From contig PGYV01000006.1 in assembly GCA_002839855.1 (NCBI GenBank), forward strand, positions 115,811 to 179,810: 64,000 bases of DNA, in the 5' to 3' direction. This DNA is from Candidatus Goldiibacteriota bacterium HGW-Goldbacteria-1 (GTDB lineage: Bacteria > Oederibacteriota > PGYV01). A model generated the notes under the pieces. It saw only the letters and a list, made by a program, of their open reading frames with translations, searched no databases and had not been told where the DNA came from. This document shows positions 42,279 through 55,270 of this stretch, piece after piece. A program made the translations under genes and the position numbers. How positions within the stretch are numbered: the first letter of the stretch is position 1; the number at the start of each line of letters is the position of its first letter.

Positions 42279-43265
42279 ATGAAAAAATTATTTTTTTTCT
42301 TACTGACTTTAAGCATGGCAGCGGTTTTTATAGGCTGCGGCAAACCGGCAGAACAGGCTTCAAAACCTACAAAAGAAGGCAAAAAAGTTTTTATTGTTGA
42401 TTCATATCATCAGGATTACATCCCTAATTCAATGAGCCGCGATGCGGCTTTAAAAATACTAAAACCCGAAGGTATTGATGTTCAGGTATTCTATCTGGAC
42501 TCTAAAAACATTACGGATATAGGCAGACTAAAACAAAAAGCAAAACAAGCTGTTGAACAAATAAACCAATATAAACCCGATATAATTCTGGCTTTTGATG
42601 ACGCAGCAAGCAAATATGTTATCATGCCGTATTTCAGGAATTCTGAAATTCCCGTTGTATTTAACGGTGTAAACTGGGACGAAAAACAGTACGGATATCC
42701 CTATAAGAATGCCACAGGCCAGCTGGAAGTAGAGCTGCTTCTTGAACTTATTGAAACCATTAAAAAATATTCAAAAGGCAATAAAATCGCGATGCTTACC
42801 GGCGATACCGAAACTGACAGGGATTCGCTGAAATATTATAACAATATTCTTAAAGTATCATTTTCAGAAGTCCGTTTTGTAACTGATTTTGATTCGTGGA
42901 AAAAAGCTTTTCTGGAAATGCAGAAAACTTCAGACGCTTTATTTCTAAGAAATAATCCGGGCATTAGGGGATGGAACACGTCAGAGGCGGAATCGTTCGT
43001 GCTTGAAAATATAAAAGTAATAACATTCACGGTGTCAACGCATCTTGAGGATATTTCAGTTATAAGCTATGCCAAGGATAATTCCGAATTCGGAGAGTAC
43101 TCGGCGCTTACCGCGCTGGATATTTTAAACGGCAAAAAACTTTCTGAAATACCAATTACCAAGTCACACCGCGCAATTGTAATTCTTAATATGAAACTTG
43201 CGAAAAAATTGGGAATAATTTTCCCCATGGAATTTATTGAACAGGCGAGGTTTGCGGGAGAATGA
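42279..43265 (+). CDS. ABC_sub_bind-type lipoprotein (probable sensory partner of the kinase)
   Basis: A 328-residue lipoprotein (lipobox VFIGC, Cys20) of the ABC_sub_bind/Tsi-type periplasmic-binding fold. It has VFIVDSYHQDYIPNSMSRDA, PDIILAFDDAASKYVIMPYF, IPVVFNGVNWDE and a C-terminal GKKLSEIPITKSHRAIVILN. These proteins bind small ligands. No permease or ATPase gene is near. Instead its stop overlaps the ATG of a membrane histidine kinase by 4 bp, so I infer that it presents a ligand to that kinase. The ligand is unknown. Confidence 0.82.
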   Translation: MKKLFFFLLTLSMAAVFIGCGKPAEQASKPTKEGKKVFIVDSYHQDYIPNSMSRDAALKILKPEGIDVQVFYLDSKNITDIGRLKQKAKQAVEQINQYKPDIILAFDDAASKYVIMPYFRNSEIPVVFNGVNWDEKQYGYPYKNATGQLEVELLLELIETIKKYSKGNKIAMLTGDTETDRDSLKYYNNILKVSFSEVRFVTDFDSWKKAFLEMQKTSDALFLRNNPGIRGWNTSEAESFVLENIKVITFTVSTHLEDISVISYAKDNSEFGEYSALTALDILNGKKLSEIPITKSHRAIVILNMKLAKKLGIIFPMEFIEQARFAGE

Positions 43266-44752
43266 ACAAAAAAAGATACAGCATAACAACAGCCGTTTTC
43301 GTCATTGCAATATTCACCTTTTTTCTGTCTTCCGCTTTTTATATTCTGCTTACCGGCACCCGCCTTAAAACAATTATTGACAATAATAAAACCGAACTAA
43401 TCACGCATAAATTTGACGGTATATCCGGTATTCTGGAAAGAAAAAATGACCGTTTAATACTGTCACAAAACATTGATGCTTACCGTAAAGCTTTTCAGGA
43501 TTCCGCGCTTTTCGACATACATAAAACCTACTGCAACAACCTGGAAAAGGGCGCTTCTATACTGATAATTAAACATGACGGCGAAATACTTTCACACCAG
43601 GAACATACCGGCATCAAAATACAAGAAATACCTGAACGCTTAAAAAATAAAATAATATCAAAAGACAGCGGCGAATTCACGGATAATATCAAAAATGAAA
43701 AATTCTGGTATATTTTTAAACATTACCCGTCATGGGACTGGTTTATAGTTTATTCACTTCCGGTAAAAGAAAAGTACTCTGAAATCAAACCTTTTTACGC
43801 CGGATTCATAGCGGCGGGAGGGGCGGCGTTTCTTGCAGGAATGCTGTTTTTAACATTTTTTGTTTATAAATCCCTGCTTCCAATTGTAAAACTTACAAAA
43901 GCCACCGAAGCCATTACCGAAGGCGATTTAAATTACAGAATTGACACTTATGGCTATGATGAAATATCGGTACTTGCGGAAAACTTTGAAAAAATGCGCG
44001 TAAGTATAAAAGATAAAATCATGGAACTTGAAAAGACAATGAAAGAACTTAAGCGTTCTAACGAGGATCTGGAGCAATACGCTTACGTATCTTCCCACGA
44101 CTTAAAAGAACCCCTGCGTATCCTGCGCCTTTATTCAGACCTGCTGCAAAAAAAATACAGCCCTTCACTTAATGACGAAGTAAAAGAAATACTGAATTTT
44201 ATTTCCACCGCGGCCGAACGCATGACAACGCAGATACAGGACATTCTTGAATATTCCAGAGCCGGCAGGTTTGAAAGCGGTATTGAGACCATTAATATTA
44301 AAGAACTTATAAATGGAGTAATTATGTCTTATTCAAAGATGTATTCAAACGCAGTAATCAAATACGAAAGCGGCGAAGTTTTTATCATAGAAGGCGACAG
44401 CACAGGTTTTAAACAGGTTTTTTCCAATCTGATTGAAAATGCCATTAAATATAACCGGTCAGAAATCCCCGAAATAAAAATAACTTCTTTTATTGAAAAT
44501 GATAACGTGGTATTTGCTGTTGCCGACAACGGTATCGGTATAAATAAAACATATTTTGATAAGATATTTGAAATCTTTGAAAGCCTTCATCCAAAAGATG
44601 AATTTCCGGGCACCGGCATAGGGCTGGCGCTGTGTAAAAAAGTGGTGGAACGCCACGGAGGCAGAATATGGGTGGAATCTGACGGCGAAGGCGGGCCGGG
44701 CTCTGTATTCAAATTTAAGCTTCCCCTAAAACAAAGGCGGGCCTCGGGCTGA
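43262..44752 (+). CDS. Membrane sensor histidine kinase (HAMP, phytochrome-type HisKA)
   Basis: A 496-residue two-pass kinase. TM1 is about residues 13-33, a periplasmic sensing region of about 145 residues follows, TM2 is about 180-203, then a HAMP linker (ATEAITEGDLNYRI), a coiled coil, and the HisKA helix with phospho-acceptor His279 in YVSSHDLKEPLRIL. The ATPase part has N-box NLIENAIKYN, G1 VADNGIGI and G2 PGTGIGLALCKKVVERHGG. The DLKEPLR form of the His box is the type that partners Rcp1-like single-domain receivers, and one is encoded at 47320. It is translationally coupled to the upstream binding protein. Confidence 0.9.
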   Translation: MNKKRYSITTAVFVIAIFTFFLSSAFYILLTGTRLKTIIDNNKTELITHKFDGISGILERKNDRLILSQNIDAYRKAFQDSALFDIHKTYCNNLEKGASILIIKHDGEILSHQEHTGIKIQEIPERLKNKIISKDSGEFTDNIKNEKFWYIFKHYPSWDWFIVYSLPVKEKYSEIKPFYAGFIAAGGAAFLAGMLFLTFFVYKSLLPIVKLTKATEAITEGDLNYRIDTYGYDEISVLAENFEKMRVSIKDKIMELEKTMKELKRSNEDLEQYAYVSSHDLKEPLRILRLYSDLLQKKYSPSLNDEVKEILNFISTAAERMTTQIQDILEYSRAGRFESGIETINIKELINGVIMSYSKMYSNAVIKYESGEVFIIEGDSTGFKQVFSNLIENAIKYNRSEIPEIKITSFIENDNVVFAVADNGIGINKTYFDKIFEIFESLHPKDEFPGTGIGLALCKKVVERHGGRIWVESDGEGGPGSVFKFKLPLKQRRASG

Positions 44753-44783
44753 ACTGAAACGCTTAAAGCCTTTTAAAACCGCT

Positions 44784-44813
44784 ATGTCAATTCATTCCCG
44801 TATTTGCTATAAT
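44784..44813 (+). promoter_or_regulatory. Promoter of the sigma-54 activator gene
   Basis: ATGTCA (44784-44789), 18-bp spacer, extended -10 TGCTATAAT (hexamer 44808-44813), 18 bp before the ATG at 44831. The activator can therefore be made independently of the kinase unit. Confidence 0.6.
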
Positions 44814-44830
44814 GGTAAAAAGGGGATTAA

Positions 44831-46171
44831 ATGAAAATACTTATTTACGCATCAAAAGAAAAGGCGGATTATTTCAGGCAGCTGGTATCATCCAATAACG
44901 TGGAATTTTTACACCTTGAAAAAAAAGAAAATATTTCTGTCCCTTCAGATATAATTCCTTACTTTGACCTTGCCTTAATATCGCTTTCTTTTGACTTTGA
45001 CACATCTTACGCTTTGATTCAGAAACTTCGTGAAGAGCGTTCCGGTTCAAAAGTGGCGGCAATAGCAGAAAGAAATGCAGCGGACGATATCATGAGCAAA
45101 CTTTTCGAAATGGACATTGATGACTATTTTATCCTGCCTGATGATTCAAAACGCCTTTTATGGGCCATAGAAAAATTATCTTCCCCCAAAAATATCGAAA
45201 AACAAAGTATTAAAAAGGGCGAAGACCGCCTTGTAATTATCGGTGAATCTCCGTCTGTTTTAAATATGATGAAATTCATTAAAAAAACCGCGCCTTCAGA
45301 CCTTCCGGTTCTTATAGAAGGCGATAGCGGCACAGGCAAAGAACTTATAGCCAACGCGCTTCATGTTCAAAGCAGCCGCTCTTCCGGGCCTATTATCGCA
45401 ATTAACTGCGGCGCGATGCCGCACGACCTTTTAGAGAACGAACTGTTCGGCCACGAAAAAGGCGCCTTTACGGGCGCCGCAGGTAAAAAAAGAGGCCTGT
45501 TTGAACTGGCAGACAACGGCACGCTTTTCATAGATGAAATAGGGGAAATGGACGGCGCCTCTCAGGTTAAACTGCTGCGCGTGCTTGAAACAGGCACCTT
45601 CCGCAGGCTGGGAAGCACCGAAGAGCTTCATTCAGATGTCCGCATAATTGCGGCTACAAACAAAGTTCTGGAAAATGAAATAACCGCAGGCAGGTTTAGG
45701 ACAGACCTTTATTACCGTTTATCCGTTTTAAGAATAGCGGTACCGGCTTTAAGAGAACGTGCGTCCGACATACCGCTTCTTATAAACCACTTTATAAATC
45801 AGTCCGGCATCGATAAGAATATCAGCACAGAAACTATTGAAGCACTTACAGCTTATTCATGGCCCGGAAATATCCGCGAACTTAAGAACGCTGTAAACAG
45901 CGCGGTTGTGATGTCTGAAGGGCAGGAGATTAAAATAAGCGACTTTCCGGAAGCGGTAAGAAAAAAACAACAGACCTCTCCCGTACAGATTTCACAGGAT
46001 GACGGTGATAATACAGGGACTTTAAAAAACTTTATCGAAACAGCAGAAAAAGAATTTTTCATAAGGGCTTTAAACAAATTTGGCGAGAACAAAACAGAAA
46101 TGGCCAAAGCCCTTAACATAAGCAGGGATATGCTTTACAGGAAGCTGAATAAGTACGGGATTTCGTACTGA
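44831..46171 (+). CDS. Sigma-54-dependent activator with a degenerate (pseudo-)receiver domain
   Basis: A 446-residue bacterial enhancer-binding protein. The AAA+ domain is complete: Walker [17 protein letters not shown] (about residue 160), the sigma-54 contact loop GAFTGA in [16 protein letters not shown], Walker [13 protein letters not shown], and the arginine fingers further on. The C-terminal Fis-type HTH is [20 protein letters not shown]. The N-terminal 115 residues have a receiver-like pattern, but the acidic pocket is absent (LIYAS in place of VxDD), the phospho-acceptor site reads LALISLSF with no Asp, and the conserved Lys is lost (YFILPDD). Phosphorylation is therefore not expected. 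Its gene is followed by a consensus sigma-54 promoter at 46512. Confidence 0.92.
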
Positions 46172-46184
46172 TAGAAGCTTAGAC

Positions 46185-46210
46185 GCTTGGATGCTTAGAG
46201 GCTTGGTAAG
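46185..46210 (+). repeat. Word array B, left arm (GCTTGGA type)
   Basis: GCTTGGATGCTTAGAGGCTT continuing GGTAAG, within a word-rich stretch that starts directly after the activator stop (46172). It matches the reverse complement of 46375-46400 in about 22 of 26 positions. Confidence 0.65.
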
Positions 46211-46310
46211 AACGGACGGTTAGACAATTGACAAAACAAATACAAAAATTAAATCCGCGTAATCATAAGAAACGTGCTTAACAATTAATATGCAATCTAA
46301 ACCAACTACA

Positions 46311-46340
46311 ACTGCCGCGCCTTAAAAGGCGCGCCTACCA
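46311..46340 (-). repeat. TGGTAG palindromic REP, copy 4 (inverted)
   Basis: On the minus strand TGGTAGGCGCGCC then TTTTAAGGCGCGGCAGT. GGCGCGCC/GGCGCG self-complementarity gives a hairpin. It lies between the arms of word array B. Confidence 0.8.
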
Positions 46341-46350
46341 ACGCTCTTGT

Positions 46351-46406
46351 ATTCCAAGCCTCCAAGCCTCCAAGCATTCCAAGCCTCTAAACATCTAAGC
46401 CTCTGC
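46351..46406 (-). repeat. Word array B, right arm (inverted)
   Basis: The reverse complement is a chain of GCTTGGA and GGCTTGG words (GGCTTGGAATGCTTGGAGGC and so on), inverted relative to the left arm near 46185. Confidence 0.7.
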
Positions 46407-46511
46407 GATAGTTTCTTCACTGTCCTAATAATCATACACCTGCCTGTTGCAAAATGGAGTGCTGTTACAATACACTTCCTGATTTTCCCTTTATAAATAA
46501 CAAAAATACAT

Positions 46512-46529
46512 TTGGCACGCATATTGCTT
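46512..46529 (+). promoter_or_regulatory. Consensus sigma-54 promoter
   Basis: TTGGCACGCATATTGCTT: the -24 box TGGCAC and the -12 box TTGC with GG and GC exactly 10 nt apart, as RpoN requires. It lies 340 bp after a sigma-54 activator gene and drives the leader and pseudo-receiver gene at 46792. Direct repeats CTGTTGC and CTGTTAC (about 46442-46470) upstream might be activator sites. Confidence 0.9.
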
Positions 46530-46577
46530 ATATAAGGATTGCAAAACGCTCTTAAACAACAAAACACAGATGGAACA

Positions 46578-46637
46578 TGGCAGCACTGGACGATTTAACC
46601 CTCCCAACCCCCCTAATTCCCCAGTTCAGTGCTGCCA
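46578..46637. repeat. C-rich hairpin 1 (G-quadruplex motif on minus strand)
   Basis: An 11-bp perfect stem, TGGCAGCACTG (46578-46588) with CAGTGCTGCCA (46627-46637), encloses a loop containing CCCTCCCAACCCCCCTAATT then CCCC (46599-46622). The complementary strand has four G-runs of three or more with loops of 1-5 nt, a standard G-quadruplex pattern. It lies in the leader of the sigma-54 transcript. Confidence 0.8.
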
Positions 46638-46698
46638 CCTAAAAAATAACTCATTAAATACATGGTTCTTTAGAAGAAAAACACATTACCTCATACTT

Positions 46699-46763
46699 CG
46701 GGCGGCACTGGTCGTTTTAACCCTCCCAAACCCCCAAATTCCCCTAATTCCAGTGCCACCCGG
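46699..46763. repeat. C-rich hairpin 2 (second copy)
   Basis: GGCACTGG (46704-46711) pairs with CCAGTGCC (46750-46757), extended by CGGG/CCCG. The loop has CCCTCCCAAACCCCCAAATT then CCCC (46721-46744), again a four-run G-quadruplex motif on the complement, 122 bp from the first. The shared block TTTTAACCCTCCCAA shows that the copies are related. Confidence 0.8.
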
Positions 46764-46791
46764 GTATATTAAAAATGATTCAGGAGATTTT

Positions 46792-47214
46792 ATGTCACAG
46801 GAAACATCAACACAAAGCAGACAGATGACAATAGTTTTTTTCGGAACGCACGGCCCGGTTTTAAAAGGCATTACAGAACTTTTTGAACCTGAAGATTTTT
46901 CGGTTACACATTTTTATTCCAAAGACCTTCCTGAATATATCAATAAGATAAACTGCGACTCTGTCATTTATACAATCGCCGATAAGTTATCACAGGAAGA
47001 CCTTGAAAATCTGAAACTGCTTAAAAAACAGGATGACCTTCTTCCGGTTATTGTTATCAGCACTGACACCGGCAAAGAATCCGAAACAAAAATAAGGCAG
47101 CAGGGAATAATGTATTTTTTCACAGAACCTTTTGAAAACGCGCACCTGCTTAGTATCATTAAATCCGGTTCCGCACTTTACAGAAAAAAATCTCAGCTTT
47201 ACAACGCAAATTAA
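46792..47214 (+). CDS. Stand-alone pseudo-receiver protein
   Basis: A 140-residue protein. The frame is open further upstream, but the ATG at 46792 has the SD CAGGAG, and the upstream codons run through the two C-rich hairpins and give a Pro-rich, non-protein-like sequence. The fold pattern is receiver-like (MTIVFFGTHG, SVIYTIADKL, LPVIVISTD, QGIMYFFTEPF), yet the acidic pair, the phospho-acceptor Asp and the conserved Lys are all missing. It is thus a pseudo-receiver, like the N-terminus of the activator at 44831. It is driven by the sigma-54 promoter at 46512. It could bind the activator or the kinase. Confidence 0.75.
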   Translation: MSQETSTQSRQMTIVFFGTHGPVLKGITELFEPEDFSVTHFYSKDLPEYINKINCDSVIYTIADKLSQEDLENLKLLKKQDDLLPVIVISTDTGKESETKIRQQGIMYFFTEPFENAHLLSIIKSGSALYRKKSQLYNAN

Positions 47215-47252
47215 TATATAAATACAAAAATTTTATACCATTGAATGAAAAA

Positions 47253-47281
47253 TTAACAGTTGTAAGGTAATAATTTATACT
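47253..47281 (+). promoter_or_regulatory. Promoter of the Rcp1-like receiver
   Basis: TTAACA (47253-47258), 17-bp spacer, TATACT (47276-47281), 38 bp before the ATG at 47320. Confidence 0.65.
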
Positions 47282-47319
47282 GTAAAATCAATAATCAGAT
47301 AAAAAAAAAGGAGGACTTC

Positions 47320-47760
47320 ATGGAAAACGTAACAATACTTATAGTTGACGATAATCCTGTTGACGTGCGGCTGACAATAGAAGCGCTGAAACAGAAAAAT
47401 AATCATAATGAAATTATAGTACTGTCTGACGGCGAAGAAGCCCTTAACTTTTTAAATAAGAAAGGGCAGTATAAAAACGCGCCCGTGCCGGATGTAATTC
47501 TGCTTGACCTTAAAATGCCAAAAGTAAACGGGCAGGAAGTACTTGTACAGATAAAAAACGACCCAAAACTTTCTTCAATACCGGTCATTGTGCTTTCAAG
47601 TTCTGACGCGCCGGCTGATATCTCGGAGAGTTATTTAAACAAAGCAAACTGTTACATCACCAAGCCCTTTGACGTGGATGAATTCTTTAGAACAATTCAG
47701 GCAATTGAAAATCTCTGGTTTGACAGGGCAAAATTACCAACAGCACCAATCAAGAAATAA
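47320..47760 (+). CDS. Single-domain response regulator (Rcp1-like)
   Basis: A 146-residue receiver with all canonical residues: acidic pair Asp10-Asp11 (LIVDDNPVD), phospho-acceptor Asp63 (VILLDLKMPKVNG), Ser/Thr in VIVLSSSD, and Lys in YITKPFD. The loop KKGQYKNAPVPD before the Asp is typical of Rcp1/CheY-like partners of phytochrome-type kinases. The kinase at 43262 is of that type, so this is its most likely phospho-target. It has no output domain, hence it acts by protein contact. It has a sigma-70 promoter and the SD AGGAGG. Confidence 0.9.
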   Translation: MENVTILIVDDNPVDVRLTIEALKQKNNHNEIIVLSDGEEALNFLNKKGQYKNAPVPDVILLDLKMPKVNGQEVLVQIKNDPKLSSIPVIVLSSSDAPADISESYLNKANCYITKPFDVDEFFRTIQAIENLWFDRAKLPTAPIKK

Positions 47761-47782
47761 ACTGCCCAAAAATACTCATTCC

Positions 47783-47798
47783 TGCCGGAAATCCGGCA
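47783..47798. promoter_or_regulatory. Perfect dyad upstream of the second sigma-54 promoter
   Basis: TGCCGGAAATCCGGCA: 6-bp arms around AAAT, centred 50 bp before the -24 box at 47839. No T-run follows, so it is less likely a terminator than an operator or activator site. Confidence 0.45.
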
Positions 47799-47837
47799 CC
47801 CCTTCCATAAAAACCCCTTATTTTTATAGCTTTTTTT

Positions 47838-47854
47838 CCGGCACGTATATTGCT
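47838..47854 (+). promoter_or_regulatory. Sigma-54-type promoter of the FecR gene
   Basis: CCGGCACGTATATTGCT: GG and GC separated by 10 nt, with CGGCAC for TGGCAC (one mismatch) and a perfect TTGC. The downstream gene starts at 47896. The core CACGTATATTGCT is very close to CACGCATATTGCT at 46512, so the same activator probably serves both. Confidence 0.8.
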
Positions 47855-47895
47855 ATTAATATGATGCAGGAAAATAAAATTAGGAGGTAATGAAA

Positions 47896-49737
47896 ATGAA
47901 AACCATAACAAAAACACTTTTAGCGGTAATCTGCCTGGTATTTGCGTCCTTAAACTTAAATGCGGCTTCAATTATTCACTCAATAGCCGTGGTATCCGAT
48001 TACGGCGGAGAGGCTTACGTAACAGCGCCGGACGCTAAAAAACGGGCTAACGCGTCTATAAGTATGCCTGTTTTTGAAGGCTCGTCAATAAAGACGCTTT
48101 CTGACAGCTACATTGAAATCACCTTTGACGACGCCACAATGGTTCGCCTTGAGTCCAATGCCGAACTTAAATTAACCGAACTTAAAAGAGACAAATCAGC
48201 AGTAACGGTTTTTAACCTTCTAAAGGGCCGCCTTCTTGCCGTTGTTGATAAACTTCGCGACGCAGATTCCACATTTGAAATTCATACTAAAATGGCAGTC
48301 GCTGCCGTAAAAGGGACAGAACTTGCGATAGACGCGGATGACAACGGCGCTTCGCTTGGGGTAAACGAAGGGCTTGTGGCTTTTTTCGCGCAGGGAAATA
48401 ATAATAGAATAATGGTAGGAAAAGGAAAAGAATCAAAATTAAACAGGGGCGCTTTAAGGCCGTCTTCTCCGTCAGATTTAAGCTCCATGTGGAAATTTGA
48501 ACGCAGGTTTGATTCTATGAGGGAAGAAATAAAAGTTATAAGGCAGTTAAAACAGGAAAACGGCGATGGCGTTATTCAGTATATGATAAAGAAGAAACTT
48601 CAAAAAGAAGGCAAGACAGAGGGCAAAGCCGAAACTAAACTGACCCTCGGCGGAAAAGATACCGAGGACACCAGAAAAGCACAGGCACGTATACAGAAAC
48701 ACTTTAAAAACAAACTGCGCGGCGAAATGAACTCCGCGTTAAAACATTCATGGGAAGATTTAAGGTTTGTTAACAACGAGATGAAAGCCGACCTTCACCT
48801 TGGCAAAAATATGACAGATGTTAAAGGCAGAAGGGTAAGGATAGAAGAATACGTTTTCAGGCCCGCGCCAAACCAGGTGGACCTGCTTTCAATCACATTA
48901 AGGGATGACAGGGTAGATTACCTTCGCGCTATGAATATGTTTAACACGCCTCTCCCAAAAATAATACCCTCTTCAGCGTGGCAGAAAGCGTGGGTTTCTA
49001 TTGATATGCCAAAGTTCTACAGGACACAGGAACGCGTCGTTATATCAAATACCGAACACCGCGTTGAAACAATATTAAAATACGGATATCAGGAAGCAGT
49101 ACTGGGCGGAAACGGTTATGAAATGGTATATTCAGGAAATGCTGATGATGACTTTTTGTTTGCTCAGCCCAAACGATTAGGCGCTGATTCTAACTTATGG
49201 ATTCTTCCGGAATACGAAACAGCACTGTGGATTGACGGCGACATAAAAGAACATCAGAAATATATCGCTGACAGGACCAAATTATGGCAGAACTTGCTTC
49301 CGATGGAATACAAATGGATAAAAATGGCGGATGACAAGACCTTTACGGGCGACATTGTTCTCCCGCTAGAAGGAAAAAACGATATAGAGTATGCCGCATG
49401 GAAAGCAACCGGAGATCCTTACGCTTATACCAATGTTGTTGTAACAACAGATAATAAATATATTGCCTTTACCAATCCCCCCGACAAAGCGGTTAATGCC
49501 GACCTTAAGTGGGTTCAGACAAAAAGATACAACGACGGCAGCTGGTTAAAGACAGAACTGTATTTAATAAACGATTATGGAACAATTCAGCAGTGGAACG
49601 GCGGCTTAAGGGATTTTGCGGATATCCTTAAATTCACCAACGTGGAACTTAACCTTACATCATCAGAATTTAACGGTCAGGATATAGACATAGTTTCCAA
49701 ACTGCTTTGGTGGACAATGTTAAACCCTAACAACTAA
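47896..49737 (+). CDS. Exported FecR-domain protein with large C-terminal domain
   Basis: A 613-residue periplasmic protein. The ATG at 47896 is chosen, 8 bp after AGGAGG. A second ATG at 47890 is too close. The signal peptide ends near SLNLNAAS (residue 24). Residues about 50-150 form a FecR domain (GSSIKTLSDSYIEITFDDAT, then GRLLAVVDKL and AAVKGTELAID). A Lys/Glu-rich helical linker (about 210-275) leads to a domain of about 330 residues that resembles outer-membrane lipoprotein-sorting (LolA-like) proteins (VRIEEYVFRPAPNQVDLLSI, TILKYGYQEAVLGG), though I am not certain. It is driven by a sigma-54-type promoter and followed by the 168-residue repeat protein. Confidence 0.82.
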   Translation: MKTITKTLLAVICLVFASLNLNAASIIHSIAVVSDYGGEAYVTAPDAKKRANASISMPVFEGSSIKTLSDSYIEITFDDATMVRLESNAELKLTELKRDKSAVTVFNLLKGRLLAVVDKLRDADSTFEIHTKMAVAAVKGTELAIDADDNGASLGVNEGLVAFFAQGNNNRIMVGKGKESKLNRGALRPSSPSDLSSMWKFERRFDSMREEIKVIRQLKQENGDGVIQYMIKKKLQKEGKTEGKAETKLTLGGKDTEDTRKAQARIQKHFKNKLRGEMNSALKHSWEDLRFVNNEMKADLHLGKNMTDVKGRRVRIEEYVFRPAPNQVDLLSITLRDDRVDYLRAMNMFNTPLPKIIPSSAWQKAWVSIDMPKFYRTQERVVISNTEHRVETILKYGYQEAVLGGNGYEMVYSGNADDDFLFAQPKRLGADSNLWILPEYETALWIDGDIKEHQKYIADRTKLWQNLLPMEYKWIKMADDKTFTGDIVLPLEGKNDIEYAAWKATGDPYAYTNVVVTTDNKYIAFTNPPDKAVNADLKWVQTKRYNDGSWLKTELYLINDYGTIQQWNGGLRDFADILKFTNVELNLTSSEFNGQDIDIVSKLLWWTMLNPNN

Positions 49738-49771
49738 GATTTTCCCTTAAACGGGGTAGAAGGAGGAAGAA

Positions 49772-50278
49772 ATGAAAAAGATTATTTTCGCACTTGTAAC
49801 AGGATTGCTTTTGTCAGGCACTCAGCTTATCGCGGCAGAACAGACAACACAGCCGATACAGACAGCGGCACAGGAACAGGCATTTGAAACACTTGACCCG
49901 CAGCAGCAGGAACAGGTAATGGAAGAAACGCAGGCAAAATGGAAGAATATGTCAGAAGAAAAGAAACTTAAAGCAAAAGAAAAGACAAACGCAAAGTGGC
50001 AGAAAATGAACGGCGAACAGAAAGCAAAAGCCGCCAAAAAAGTTAAAGCAAAATGGGAAGGCTTAAATGAAGAACAGAAAATTCAGGCACGCGAAAGGGC
50101 AAGGAAAATGAAACAGGAAAGAGCCGGCAATCAGGACGGCAGCGGCAATAAAGAAATGAACAAAAACAAATCACAGAAAATGAATAAGAATATGTCCGAA
50201 ACACAGAAAGAACAGGCAAAAGAAAGGGTTCAGGAAAGAACACAGGAAAGGGCAAAATCAGGGTCAGGAAAAAGATAA
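49772..50278 (+). CDS. Exported helical protein with 19-residue Trp/Lys repeats
   Basis: A 168-residue exported protein (signal peptide ending near LIAAEQT, residue 21). The core has three repeats of 19 residues: AKWKNMSEEKKLKAKEKTN, AKWQKMNGEQKAKAAKKVK and AKWEGLNEEQKIQARERAR, starting near residue 51. The rest is very rich in K, E, Q and R, and the C-terminus is Lys/Arg/Met-rich. The repeat pattern recalls DUF3106 and Spy-like periplasmic chaperone helices, without a firm match. It lies 34 bp after the FecR gene with SD GGAGGA and is closed by a strong terminator, so the two form the sigma-54 unit. Confidence 0.75.
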   Translation: MKKIIFALVTGLLLSGTQLIAAEQTTQPIQTAAQEQAFETLDPQQQEQVMEETQAKWKNMSEEKKLKAKEKTNAKWQKMNGEQKAKAAKKVKAKWEGLNEEQKIQARERARKMKQERAGNQDGSGNKEMNKNKSQKMNKNMSETQKEQAKERVQERTQERAKSGSGKR

Positions 50279-50286
50279 ATTCAGTT

Positions 50287-50317
50287 AAAAAGGGCCGCTT
50301 AAAAGCGGCCCTTTTTA
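50287..50317 (+). terminator. Terminator after the sigma-54 FecR unit
   Basis: AAAGGGCCGCTT pairs with AAGCGGCCCTTT across a 2-nt loop, with a T-run. It lies 9 bp after the stop at 50278 and just before the SD of the next gene. Confidence 0.9.
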
Positions 50318-50335
50318 ATTTATAGGAGCCTGCTT

Positions 50336-51262
50336 TTGAGAAAAACATTACTGCCTTTAATATTTATTTTTTTTATTCCCGCTTTTGCCCTGCCTTCAGA
50401 TTTTACGGCAGAAATATTTTTTAACACATCAGGGACAAAAGGAATTTCAGCGGATATTTACGCGGAAATTGAAGACAGCGCGTTTATGATAACAGCACTT
50501 TATTCATTTTCATCAGTTGATACAAACGCGTTCTCGGCGGGCGCCTCTTACTACACCCCCATAAATGATATTTTTTCACTTTTAGGCAGTTATACATTTT
50601 ATACCGGCAGCACCTATTACTCTTCGGCAACAGAAACAGCAGCAGAAGAAGTAAGTTATCCGGTGGGACTTATATCACACAGCGTTTCTCTTTTACCCTC
50701 GTTATTATTTGATTCCCTTGAAATAACACCGGGCGCGTCTTTTGCGGTTGATACCGTAAGTTATCCCGTGTTAAACGAATATTACACCGGAAGAAGGGCT
50801 GATTCACAAAAAAACTACGTATCTTACACAACTGCGGCCCCCGAACTGTCTGCATCATATTATTTTGAAGATGATCTTACAGCCGGAATATCCGGAAATT
50901 ATGTGTTTTATTCAATAAATCCGTCAGCTGTTTATGACGCTGCCGGGGCAACTTTAAATACCTCCGCGGAGGCTGCAAGCGTTGATGCCGCCGTTTCGTT
51001 TAAAAAATACACGATTTATGCTTCTTTAAAAAAGAAATTTAACCCTGTCTCGCTTGCCCTTAAGTTATCATTTAAAGAATATCACATCCCCGAGGCAGGG
51101 CATTATATCTTCCATTCATATTCGGCAGATGTAAAAGCGGGATATCAGTTTTCAGAGGATATGTCCGTGGAAATCCGCCCCGAATACAGTTTTCTGCGGT
51201 ATTCGGACAATTCCACAGGGAATAACTTATATATCTCTTTGTCGGCCACACACAAATTTTAA
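50336..51262 (+). CDS. Probable outer-membrane beta-barrel, 308 residues
   Basis: The start is TTG at 50336, 7 bp after AGGAG, directly behind the terminator. The signal peptide covers residues 1-20 (FFIPAFALPSDF). The mature chain is made of alternating strands with many Tyr, Ser, Thr and Phe (for example FMITALYSFSSVDTNAFSAG and YSVDVKAGYQF-like YSADVKAGYQF) and ends in HKF, a barrel-type C-terminus with terminal Phe. No named family. The location between the FecR unit and a second barrel suggests an envelope complex. It needs read-through or a hidden promoter. Confidence 0.68.
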   Translation: MRKTLLPLIFIFFIPAFALPSDFTAEIFFNTSGTKGISADIYAEIEDSAFMITALYSFSSVDTNAFSAGASYYTPINDIFSLLGSYTFYTGSTYYSSATETAAEEVSYPVGLISHSVSLLPSLLFDSLEITPGASFAVDTVSYPVLNEYYTGRRADSQKNYVSYTTAAPELSASYYFEDDLTAGISGNYVFYSINPSAVYDAAGATLNTSAEAASVDAAVSFKKYTIYASLKKKFNPVSLALKLSFKEYHIPEAGHYIFHSYSADVKAGYQFSEDMSVEIRPEYSFLRYSDNSTGNNLYISLSATHKF

Positions 51263-51264
51263 AA

Positions 51265-51293
51265 TTGAAATTATCAGTTTATAAGGTTATAAT
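51265..51293 (+). promoter_or_regulatory. Promoter of the barrel-kinase-regulator operon
   Basis: TTGAAA (51265-51270), 17-bp spacer and a perfect TATAAT (51288-51293), 34 bp before the GTG at 51328. Confidence 0.8.
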
Positions 51294-51327
51294 TACTCCA
51301 TAAAAAATATTTAGGGGAGGCCTTTTT

Positions 51328-52596
51328 GTGAAGAAATTATTTTTATCATTATGTTTTTTACTGTTAATTATAACCGGTATTTTTGCTTGGGAATTTACGC
51401 CCGCGCTTGACCTTAACGCCAATATTGCTTATCCTTATACCTCCGTTGATGAGGAACTTCAGAAAAAACTAAGCGGCGCTGTTGATGCCGCAGGTTCTTT
51501 TATGGTAAACACGGATTTATTGCCGCAGCTCTGGTTTATACCCACTGTAACTTTAAATTACGCCTCTACAGCCCAGCCCCTGAACATAGACGATGAGCGT
51601 TTTCTGTTTTCACAGTGGCTGGATGCTTACATCTCTTACGGTGTTAACTATGAAATTAACCCCGGCGCATGGGAATTAAGGCTGCGCGGCTTTTACAGAA
51701 AGGACTTTTCACAACAGACTCAGGATGAAGTTGTTGGCAAAGGGCTTTACGATTATGCAGATAAAGGGTTCTACTTTGAAAATATCAATATCTTTGACAT
51801 CGGGGATATGGGCAATGAAATTGCAGCCGGGTTTAAATACACCGACAGGCGTTTTCCTAATTATTCAACACTTATATCAGACCCGGACGTTCAGGAGCTT
51901 ATCGGTAATAATTCCAACCCCAACACTTATACAAAAGAAAAAGACAGCCTTTCATACAACATTTATGCCTCTGATAACATCAAATGGGGAAGTTCCAACT
52001 GGTTTACAAACTTTGAATTTTCATACGAATACACGCCTTATACGGAACAGAAAATCATTTACCTTGACGGAGTGCTGTCCGATGAACGCAGGGTTGATAA
52101 GTATTCCCGCTTAACCCTTGAAATTCCTTATTACGCTGATGACTACAGCGGGGTATCTTTTGGATACGGGCTTACGGTAAAACTGACCAACCAGAATTAT
52201 TACGACCAGCTTGGAACCACAGAACCCGAAGACGACAAGTACATTAAAAATTATTACAATTACATGGGGCACACGCTTAACTTCACCATTCACTACGGCA
52301 TCCCGGACCTGTTATTTAAAGGCCAGACCACAACAGCCGTTATTGCCTTAATGGTGGAAGCAGTTAACTACAACACCCGTTACGCAAAGGATTTAGAGGG
52401 CTTATATAAGCCCGACCTTCAGAAAGACAACAACTATACAGTATCGCTTGACCTTAAACATTTAATATTTGAATGGTGGGAAGTTTCAGCGAAAGCCTCA
52501 TTTACGGATTATAATTCCAACATGCAGTATGAAACCTTTGGCCTGTACAATTACAGCTATTTCACCGCAGGAATTGGTTCTTCCGTCAGTTTCTAA
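51328..52596 (+). CDS. Probable outer-membrane beta-barrel, 422 residues
   Basis: GTG start with SD GGGGAGG (51314-51320). Signal peptide about residues 1-20 (ITGIFAWEF). The mature chain is strand-rich with aromatic girdles (LDLNANIAYPYTSVD, FSYEYTPYTEQKIIY, KASFTDYNSNMQYETFGLYN) and ends SSVSF with terminal Phe, as barrels do. No named family. The kinase gene starts 2 bp downstream, so barrel, kinase and regulator are one operon under the promoter at 51265. The kinase may respond to the state of this envelope protein. Confidence 0.7.
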   Translation: MKKLFLSLCFLLLIITGIFAWEFTPALDLNANIAYPYTSVDEELQKKLSGAVDAAGSFMVNTDLLPQLWFIPTVTLNYASTAQPLNIDDERFLFSQWLDAYISYGVNYEINPGAWELRLRGFYRKDFSQQTQDEVVGKGLYDYADKGFYFENINIFDIGDMGNEIAAGFKYTDRRFPNYSTLISDPDVQELIGNNSNPNTYTKEKDSLSYNIYASDNIKWGSSNWFTNFEFSYEYTPYTEQKIIYLDGVLSDERRVDKYSRLTLEIPYYADDYSGVSFGYGLTVKLTNQNYYDQLGTTEPEDDKYIKNYYNYMGHTLNFTIHYGIPDLLFKGQTTTAVIALMVEAVNYNTRYAKDLEGLYKPDLQKDNNYTVSLDLKHLIFEWWEVSAKASFTDYNSNMQYETFGLYNYSYFTAGIGSSVSF

Positions 52597-52598
52597 AA

Positions 52599-53942
52599 AT
52601 GAAGCATAAAAAACTGCTTAAATGGGAAATTTTTTCCGGCTTCGCGGCAATACTGCTTATTAACGTTTTTCTGCTTAACCTTTTTGTGAACACCGCTTTT
52701 AAAAACATCCTTGACGCGGAAACAGACAGCAGGTTAAAAGCGGTCGCGCAGCACATTGATTCATTCACAGACCCCATAATTTTTTCACTTTCAAAAGATT
52801 ACGCTTCAACCGGTATATATTCAGATTTTATGGATGCCCTTAAAAAGCAGGCCGAACTTTGGAAAACCGATATCACCTTATTCGGCATTAATGGCGGTAT
52901 AAGCGCTTCCACATCACAATCACAGCCGCTTTTAGACAGTTACATTACGGCAATGGGGTCGCAATATTCCGTCACTTTTTTTGACAACGGCGTACCCATA
53001 AAAAAATATTACCATAACTATTCAAGAAACGGAAAAACTTACGGCACCATAACCCTTGAACAGAAAGGGGAGTCCCTTCAGGCTTTTACAAATATTAAAA
53101 AATCACAGCTTACCATAGTGGCATTATTGCTTCTTGTTTCAATGATTTTGGCTTTTATATTCTCTTACTTTGTCACAAAAAGGATAGGGCAGACCGTTAC
53201 CGCGATGGAACAGATTTCGTCCGGCGCTGAAAACCCTTTAATACCTTCCGGATTTGATGAAATCACCTATCTGCAGCAGGGTATAAATAACATGGTTCAG
53301 GCTCTGAAAGAATCACAGGAAACCCGTTTTAAAGAGATTCAGATAACCGCCATGGGGCTGGCGCATGAGATTAAAAACCCGGCCGCCGCAATTCACGCAC
53401 TGGCAGAGCTTATACAAAGGCCGGGACAGGAAAAAAACAGCGTTAAACTGGCGGAAAAAATCCGCGAAGAGATAATGAGATTAAATAACATTACCGACCG
53501 CTTTATACATTTCGCTAAAGAAGAAGACGTAATGCGAGAGGAGATTCCGGCGCTTGATTTTATGGCGCTTATAACAGACCAGTATCCGGATGTGGAAATT
53601 CACATAAACCCCAGGACAGCCTCTATAAACATAGATACTCTTCTTATGGAACGGGCGGTAAAAAACATTGTCAAGAACAGCTATGAAGCAGGCGCTTTGT
53701 CGGTTAAACTGACATATAATGAGCCCGCGCGCACAATTACCATAACCAATAACGCGCAGTTAATTGACGCAGATGCGGCGGAAAAAATATTCATTCCGTT
53801 TTTTACCACAAAGCCCGGCGGCATGGGAATCGGCCTTGCCATTACAAAAAATATAATTGAAAAACACGGCGGCAAAATTCAATACAAATCAGAAAACGGC
53901 CTTAACGTATTTATAATCACAATAGGGCAGAAAAAGGGTTAA
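52599..53942 (+). CDS. Membrane sensor histidine kinase (NtrB/ZraS-like)
   Basis: A 447-residue kinase. TM1 about residues 10-32, a periplasmic sensing region of about 135 residues, TM2 about 170-192, a HAMP linker (MEQISSGAENPLIP), then HisKA with phospho-acceptor His256 in MGLAHEIKNPAAAIHALAEL. The ATPase part has N-box IVKNSYEAGA and a G2 box KPGGMGIGLAITKNIIEKHGG-type end. The G1 box is weak, with little of the usual DNGxG. The HEIKNP box is the type that partners NtrC-family regulators, and one starts 2 bp downstream. It probably senses an envelope signal. Confidence 0.9.
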   Translation: MKHKKLLKWEIFSGFAAILLINVFLLNLFVNTAFKNILDAETDSRLKAVAQHIDSFTDPIIFSLSKDYASTGIYSDFMDALKKQAELWKTDITLFGINGGISASTSQSQPLLDSYITAMGSQYSVTFFDNGVPIKKYYHNYSRNGKTYGTITLEQKGESLQAFTNIKKSQLTIVALLLLVSMILAFIFSYFVTKRIGQTVTAMEQISSGAENPLIPSGFDEITYLQQGINNMVQALKESQETRFKEIQITAMGLAHEIKNPAAAIHALAELIQRPGQEKNSVKLAEKIREEIMRLNNITDRFIHFAKEEDVMREEIPALDFMALITDQYPDVEIHINPRTASINIDTLLMERAVKNIVKNSYEAGALSVKLTYNEPARTITITNNAQLIDADAAEKIFIPFFTTKPGGMGIGLAITKNIIEKHGGKIQYKSENGLNVFIITIGQKKG

Positions 53943-53944
53943 CG

Positions 53945-55270
53945 ATGAACAGGGTGCTTCTTGTAGAAGACGAAAAAAACATACGCGAATCAGTGGAAAC
54001 CGCGCTGTCGGACAGGTATGAAGTATCGGCTTTTGATTCCGCGGAGAAAGCTTTAACCGCGCTTAGCGACAATGGATTTGATATTCTTATTACAGACATA
54101 AAACTTCCCGGCATTACCGGAATTGAACTGCTTAAAAAATTTAAAACACTAAGCCCGGATTCCCCTGTAATAGTAATGACCGCTTTTTCTTCCATAAACA
54201 GCGCCATAGAAGCTATGAAAGCCGGCGCCGATGAATACGTTCCCAAGCCGTTTTCGCTTGAAGAACTTGAAATAAAAACAGAAAATCTTCTTAAAATTAA
54301 AAAACTTAAAGAAGACAAGAACTTATATGTAAGCCAGCAGGACAGCGCCTTTGGCGAAATAGCCGGGACAAGCCCGGAAATAAATTCTATAAAAACCGGC
54401 ATTTCAAAAATAGCCGCAAACGACGTCACGGTGCTTATTACAGGGGAAACCGGTACGGGCAAAGAACTTATCGCGTACACCATACATAAATTAAGCGGCA
54501 GAAAAGGGCCTTTTGTGCCTGTCCACTGCGCCGCGTATGCCAAAGGCGTCATAGAGTCAGAGCTGTTCGGCCACGAAAAAGGCGCGTTTACGGGCGCTGA
54601 CAAGCTTAGAAAAGGAAGGATAGAAACAGCACAGGACGGGACGCTTTTTCTTGACGAACTTGGCGACATTCCGCCCGACATTCAGGTTAAGCTGCTGCGC
54701 GTACTTGAAAATAAAACTTATGAACGCGTGGGCGGCAGTAAATCATTATCCACAAACGCAAGGGTTTTGTGCGCCACAAACAGAAACCTTGAAGAGCTGA
54801 TAAAAAAAGGGGAGTTTCGGGAAGACCTGTTTTACAGGGTAAATGTTTTCCCGATTAACATACCGCCTTTAAGGGAAAGAAAAGGGGATATACAGCCTCT
54901 TGCGGAGACATTTGCGTCAAGACGCGGCAGTTTTACGATTAACACGGCGGGCAAAAACGCGCTTTTAGCATACAGCTGGCCCGGCAACGTAAGGGAACTG
55001 CAGAATATAATTGAACGCGCGGTAATACTGTCCACGGGCAGCGAACTTAACATCACAGATGCCCTTGGAAAACCGGCCGCAGAGGCGGAATCACCGGGAA
55101 ACGGCGGACTTGAAAATATAGTGGAGGCCTTTGAAAAAAAGATTATTGAAGCCTCGCTGAAAAACAATAATTACAACCAGACAAAAGCATCAAAAGAACT
55201 TCAGATAAGCAGGACGACACTGCAGTATAAAATTCAAAAATATTCAATCACGGAGAAAACCGGTGATTAA
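53945..55270 (+). CDS. NtrC-family sigma-54 response regulator (complete receiver)
   Basis: A 441-residue activator with a full receiver: acidic pair Glu8-Asp9, phospho-acceptor Asp51 in ILITDIKLPGITG, Thr/Ser in VIVMTAFSS and Lys in YVPKPF. The AAA+ domain has [22 protein letters not shown] in [16 protein letters not shown] and TLFLDELGDIP. The C-terminal Fis HTH is NQTKASKELQISRTTLQYKI. Only 2 bp from the kinase gene. Together they are a normal two-component pair, unlike the activator at 44831. Candidate targets are the sigma-54 promoters at 46512 and 47838. Confidence 0.93.
   Translation: MNRVLLVEDEKNIRESVETALSDRYEVSAFDSAEKALTALSDNGFDILITDIKLPGITGIELLKKFKTLSPDSPVIVMTAFSSINSAIEAMKAGADEYVPKPFSLEELEIKTENLLKIKKLKEDKNLYVSQQDSAFGEIAGTSPEINSIKTGISKIAANDVTVLITGETGTGKELIAYTIHKLSGRKGPFVPVHCAAYAKGVIESELFGHEKGAFTGADKLRKGRIETAQDGTLFLDELGDIPPDIQVKLLRVLENKTYERVGGSKSLSTNARVLCATNRNLEELIKKGEFREDLFYRVNVFPINIPPLRERKGDIQPLAETFASRRGSFTINTAGKNALLAYSWPGNVRELQNIIERAVILSTGSELNITDALGKPAAEAESPGNGGLENIVEAFEKKIIEASLKNNNYNQTKASKELQISRTTLQYKIQKYSITEKTGD

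Follow-up and report, generated by a model that had tools for sequence, protein, structure and literature searches.

A sigma-54 activator with a degenerate receiver, a pseudo-receiver operon and an order-wide family of C-rich-loop hairpins in Candidatus Goldiibacteriota

The locus analysed here lies in a 64,000-nucleotide stretch (the window) of Candidatus Goldiibacteriota bacterium HGW-Goldbacteria-1 (contig PGYV01000006.1, positions 115,811 to 179,810, forward strand). It encodes a sigma-54 activator with a degenerate receiver (ebp), a stand-alone pseudo-receiver (psr) and, ahead of psr, two hairpins with C-rich loops. Coordinates are window positions and the features of the locus are on the plus strand. 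The window's species (W; genome G000) was compared with two congeneric genomes (G1 and G2), and the whole locus is syntenic in both. It begins with abc (42279-43265), encoding an ABC_sub_bind-type lipoprotein (Pfam PF04392, 1.7e-8) with a lipobox-like start, the probable extracellular sensor part. This gene overlaps by 4 bases with hk (43262-44752), which encodes a membrane histidine kinase with HAMP, HisKA and HATPase domains. Then come ebp (44831-46171; 446 amino acids), psr (46792-47214; 140 amino acids) and rr (47320-47760), which encodes a canonical single-domain receiver. An earlier interpretation based on the letters alone (hereafter the sequence-only reading) had described ebp, psr and two sigma-54 promoters. 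Its open reading frames, its promoter positions and the intact motifs and lost receiver residues that it gave for ebp were all correct in open reading frame, motif and alignment checks; it overlooked rr, hk, the leader hairpins and a second kinase with its NtrC partner (hk2-ntrC2) further downstream.

The ebp product has the build of an NtrC-family bacterial enhancer-binding protein, with an AAA+ domain (Sigma54_activat, E=1.7e-67) in which the Walker A, GAFTGA and Walker B (FIDEIGEM) motifs are all intact, and a C-terminal Fis-type helix-turn-helix (HTH_8, 1e-7). A Pfam search assigned its first 125 residues to no family, Response_reg included, and the Pfam FleQ domain did not match ebp. In an alignment of 24 activators, every residue expected of a phosphorylated response regulator is replaced in the receiver of ebp: A-S stands in place of the acidic pair, Ser in place of the phospho-Asp, Ala in place of the Thr and Leu in place of the Lys. 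All three congeneric orthologues share these losses (the acidic pair is V-S in G1). An AlphaFold2 model nevertheless shows the beta-alpha topology of a receiver, lacking helix alpha2, with a predicted local distance difference test score (pLDDT) mostly of 73-85 in that domain, and the solved chains of NtrX, NtrC1, LuxO, FleQ and VpsR align to it from residue 1. These replacements support the view that the usual switching by receiver phosphorylation would be impossible for ebp.

Activators of this kind were also seen elsewhere. A paralogue of ebp (L116:543-2653; G001:C71), about 54% identical over the AAA+ and helix-turn-helix part, has a degraded receiver; the genes after it encode a canonical CheY-like receiver and proteins like CheA, CheW and CheR, so that the pairing of a dead-receiver activator with a separate receiver recurs there. 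A related activator (L118:10619-11689; G010:C133) has no receiver domain at all, and stand-alone canonical receivers are encoded close by. On the 3' side of ebp itself, a species-specific low-complexity stretch (46173-46400) with CCAAGCCTC repeats and a GGCGCGCC hairpin is unalignable to the relatives.

Like ebp, psr is receiver-like and has lost the phosphorylation site, as the sequence-only reading had held. Its match to Response_reg is weak and under the cut-off (8.3e-5), and the fold assignment comes from the G2 orthologue, which scores above it (31.0 bits against 30.2). The acidic DD is replaced by GTH or GNH, the phospho-Asp by Thr or His and the Lys by Thr; the Ser is retained. A ratio of non-synonymous to synonymous substitution rates (dN/dS) of 0.14 indicates that psr is under purifying selection. 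A longer psr frame starting at 46570 was rejected as a protein; in G2 its ATG is absent and one base is deleted, and a Shine-Dalgarno sequence (CAGGAG) precedes the start at 46792. Because of the missing ATG and the deletion, the stretch from 46570 to 46792 is taken as noncoding leader. Between psr and fecR, rr encodes a complete receiver of the Rcp1 type (Rcp1/RcpA matches of about 1e-35; PDB Rcp1, 4.2e-35) that ranks with the best-conserved proteins of the locus, with 99% and 87% identity to the congeners and a dN/dS of 0.017-0.063. The HisKA motif of hk, SHDLKEPLR (HDLxEPLR type), presumably resembles that of the kinases that partner Rcp1.

The promoter of the psr operon (46512-46529) contains TGGCACGCATATTGC (46513-46527), the sole exact match to YTGGCACGNNNNTTGC in 2.86 Mb, with 0 in a reversed control. 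Speaking against the motif alone, sigma-54 motifs are not enriched in the window once two mismatches are allowed, so the case for the promoters rests on conservation. Both predicted RpoN promoters, that of psr and that of fecR (47838-47854), have the GG-N10-GC core with -24/-12 spacing and are present in three species, and the fecR site is found in more distant genomes as well. The window's genome encodes rpoN. About 50-80 bp before the -24 box of the psr promoter, a distance usual for enhancer sites, lies a block conserved in the three species (TACACCTGCCTGTTGCAAAATGGAGT, 46435-46460). A copy of this block was looked for at fecR and not found, as the genome contains a single copy when up to 3 mismatches are allowed. 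Because this candidate enhancer is unique, ebp probably serves a single operon, psr-rr.

The psr leader is 250 nt long and carries two hairpins, 30-215 nt before the start codon, with C-rich loops of 32-38 nt and z scores of about -5.3 each. H1 (46578-46637) has a 14-bp stem and a 32-nt loop, and H2 (46699-46762) has a stem with one mismatch. W and G1 have the same H1 sequence, from which G2 departs by one deletion, and H2 differs from the congeners at 1 and 3 of 79 columns. Since both hairpins are 96-100% identical between species, against 0.67 and 0.46 at the third codon positions of psr, the leader appears to be under constraint. An Rfam scan gave no family above the gathering cut-off for the hairpins. 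A high-copy mobile repeat was considered and rejected, as the window's genome contains only 2 exact copies of the loop and 4 members of the family described below.

A first covariance model built from six hairpin sequences (H1 and H2 in three species) led to two distant relatives. The enlarged model, R2, matches 8 of 10 genomes of the order and, outside the order, 1 of 29 genomes of the phylum; a match within an unrelated stretch (L202 in G036) was left out of the count. Enlarged once more, as R3, the model reached 37 matches, which come from 13 of 14 genomes of the order. The loop CCCUCCC-AA(A)-CCCC, with A/U after it, is common to the members, which carry it on at least 15 different stems, and the linkers between the C-runs are as conserved as the runs themselves. 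Ten of 11 stem pairs have changed on both sides while 96.6% of cells pair, and covariation is 0.861 versus 0.233 in shuffled alignments, with slid controls far lower as well. Individual sequences show the stems clearly as well. Of 381 CCTCCC sites in 1.05 Mb of DNA from other taxa, not one is part of a comparable hairpin. An intrinsic terminator follows within 70 nt on the same strand in 9 of 25 members, compared with 1 of 25 in the mirror position. Several other members sit just before start codons, as the psr pair does. One member (G000:C4:283657-283713, minus strand) has a sigma-70 promoter (TTGACT-16-TATAAT) and a terminator, is kept in all three species and looks like a free-standing small RNA (sRNA) gene. 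That the family is a conserved structured element has good support, its function less. In our view it is the most novel element of the locus, the proteins being a new combination of known parts.

The free-standing gene (L208:1440-1655 in G000:C4, minus strand) adjoins a DNA glycosylase-like gene, and the hairpins in G008 and G011 (L218 and L216) precede a gene resembling this neighbour. The R2 site in G008 (L200:1092-1145) is a hairpin copy that precedes an Rrf2-like regulator gene. Three near-identical tandem copies stand upstream of a cysK-like gene in another genome (L201:1298-1781; G003:C54).

Downstream of rr begins a second set of genes. The fecR gene (47890-49737), encoding a secreted FecR-domain protein, is followed by two outer-membrane-type proteins and by hk2 and ntrC2 (52599-55270), a kinase and a fully canonical NtrC that are kept alongside fecR across the order. 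The sequence-only reading had placed the fecR promoter in the same circuit as ebp, and a search for homologous neighbourhoods, which it had proposed, contradicts this. Both ebp and psr recur together in the two congeneric genomes, but the order's other families have the run secA, fecR (single or doubled), omp2, hk2, ntrC2, and none of the five genes abc, hk, ebp, psr and rr intervenes between secA and fecR. Wherever sequence 5' of fecR is available from those families, a sigma-54 type site (for example TGGCACAACTATTGC, CGGCACACATATTGC or TGGCATGCCTATTGC) lies 50-150 bp before the gene, and upstream of it is a TGCC-N8-GGCA dyad. The same dyad is found in the window (TGCCGGAAATCCGGCA, 47783-47798), where it is a candidate NtrC2 enhancer of fecR. 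A single circuit with both promoters was rejected, because the fecR module, its promoter and its dyad exist in genomes without ebp and psr. The fecR promoter would therefore predate the pseudo-receiver cassette or at least be independent of it. On the same grounds we assign it to the downstream kinase-NtrC pair, the linked ntrC2 being, to judge from gene order, most likely its activator. The distribution of these genes indicates that abc-hk-ebp-psr-rr (42279-47760) is a genus-specific insertion or gain between secA and fecR.

Thus, we propose that two separate sigma-54 circuits lie side by side, an older one of fecR, omp, hk2 and ntrC2 and the genus-only one of abc, hk, ebp, psr and rr, an explanation that as a whole we hold with about even confidence. 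As its receiver is dead, ebp would be controlled through contact with a protein or through its own abundance, and would activate one operon from the promoter at 46512. The predicted transcript starts with the two hairpins and continues with psr and the Rcp1-type rr. The loops would most likely pair with purine-rich ribosome-binding sites and repress translation, acting as an sRNA derived from the 5' untranslated region (UTR) or from within the leader. Most likely hk phosphorylates rr, and rr and psr may feed back on the kinase or the activator. In sequence, the CCCUCCC of the loop complements ribosome-binding sites rich in purines. A rough duplex test over 43 genes of the window ranked the start regions of duf3106, hk and ntrC2 first to third (locus versus rest, p=0.009, post hoc), and most pairings stay favourable in the relatives, which hints at these three genes as possible targets. 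Only tentatively do we extend this to the view that the hairpins are an undescribed, order-wide family of anti-Shine-Dalgarno RNAs, with the psr-leader pair under a dead-receiver sigma-54 activator. One promoter would then produce an RNA that silences, along with the pseudo-receiver and the true receiver, and the three together would feed back on the locus's own kinase and activator.

Several observations weigh against parts of this proposal. C-rich loops favour any G-rich site, the p value of the duplex test is post hoc, and the ribosome-binding site of psr itself pairs weakly with the loops (-6 to -8 kcal/mol). The alignment behind the covariation counts was fitted to the structure, so the counts lean towards it. 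Similarly, the input alignment for the ebp model included canonical receivers, which favours a receiver fold. Of the structure modelling that the sequence-only reading had called for, the ebp part returned a receiver-like fold; the single-sequence model of psr has a pLDDT of 39 with no confident residue, and no superposition was obtained.

Other readings of the protein side centre on how ebp is switched. Control of ebp by contact with the psr that it induces, a protein feedback loop to which the hairpins are incidental, was the proposal of the sequence-only reading and seems to us somewhat unlikely. The genes are adjacent, share genus-wide conservation and have in FleQ-FleN a precedent (PMC10723142), and psr is selected as a protein, but the leader is more constrained than psr itself, the true receiver rr in the same operon would be an equally good partner, and the fecR promoter is not part of the circuit. 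What survives of that proposal is the loss of the usual phospho-switching and a psr that lies beside ebp in a sigma-54 operon with a unique conserved candidate enhancer. Alternatively, ebp could be constitutively active and regulated by amount only, with psr and rr serving another pathway. Many atypical regulators are active without phosphorylation (PMC12632262), yet a kinase gene directly upstream and receiver genes downstream suggest a signal input, and we regard this reading as unlikely.

The hairpins could also act in cis only, the leader governing translation or stability of psr-rr, for example through a protein that binds C-rich loops, or serving as a Rho loading site. Their location before psr and that of several family members directly before start codons agree with such a role, which is possible though we rather doubt it, since terminators come after at least 9 members and one member forms a gene of its own; Rho loading sites, moreover, are seldom conserved base for base. 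It is quite improbable that the hairpins are DNA elements, whether cruciforms, G-quadruplexes or i-motifs, protein sites or remnants of mobile repeats. Although C-runs on one strand face G-runs on the other and the inverted repeats are long, the terminators are strand-specific, the free-standing copy has a promoter, the linkers are conserved like the C-runs, the stems vary between loci, and copies per genome are few.

The two-circuit proposal, with its hairpin RNA, matters for two reasons. The switching of pseudo-receivers is still to be explained (PMC12632262), and a locus this compact, with an activator, a kinase, a pseudo-receiver and a true receiver, brings the question within experimental reach. 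The hairpins would add a new family of regulatory RNAs to a candidate phylum, and would be an independent example of the anti-Shine-Dalgarno design with several hairpins that is known from alpha-proteobacteria. We know of no described sRNAs in this phylum.

The sequence-only reading knew of no described system with this arrangement, a claim that does not hold for its main parts. Dead-receiver activators that act by contact are known from FleQ-FleN and from structures of VpsR, and FleQ of P. aeruginosa is regulated through protein contact with FleN (PMC10723142). Like ebp, FleQ and VpsR combine an atypical receiver with AAA+ and helix-turn-helix domains in a sigma-54-type activator, and their solved chains match the model from residue 1. 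Unlike the case of FleQ, the candidate partners here are receivers and no flagellar gene is linked; no FleN-like gene was seen in the locus, nor a ParA-like one among the annotated genes from 42279 to 55270. Sets of pseudo-receiver, receiver and kinase are also known. CmrRST of C. difficile joins a kinase, a true receiver and a pseudo-receiver regulator in one gene set (PMC12632262), as does the locus here, but CmrT is an OmpR-type DNA-binding regulator, whereas psr consists of the domain only and a separate protein is the activator. In relation to Cph1-Rcp1, rr matches Rcp1/RcpA, while hk is a membrane HAMP kinase beside a periplasmic-binding-type lipoprotein and kinases of the Cph1 type are phytochromes.

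On the RNA side, the alpha-r14 family has three hairpins, each with an identical anti-Shine-Dalgarno loop, on variable stems, and one member, NfeR1, acts in a feedback loop with NtrBC by silencing ntrBC (PMC10746234, PMC3927594). Anti-Shine-Dalgarno RNAs can be cut from mRNA, since the CcsR RNAs are described as UTR-derived and processed by RNase E (PMC8625941). The family described here resembles alpha-r14, NfeR1 and CcsR of alpha-proteobacteria in that the hairpins are repeated, their C-rich loops conserved and their paired stems variable. It differs in its loop, CCCUCCC-AA(A)-CCCC rather than the CCUCCUCCC of alpha-r14 and cuckoo anti-Shine-Dalgarno RNAs, and, compared with alpha-r14 and NfeR1, in its phylum, its loops of about 25-40 nt and its position in the sigma-54 leader of a protein operon.

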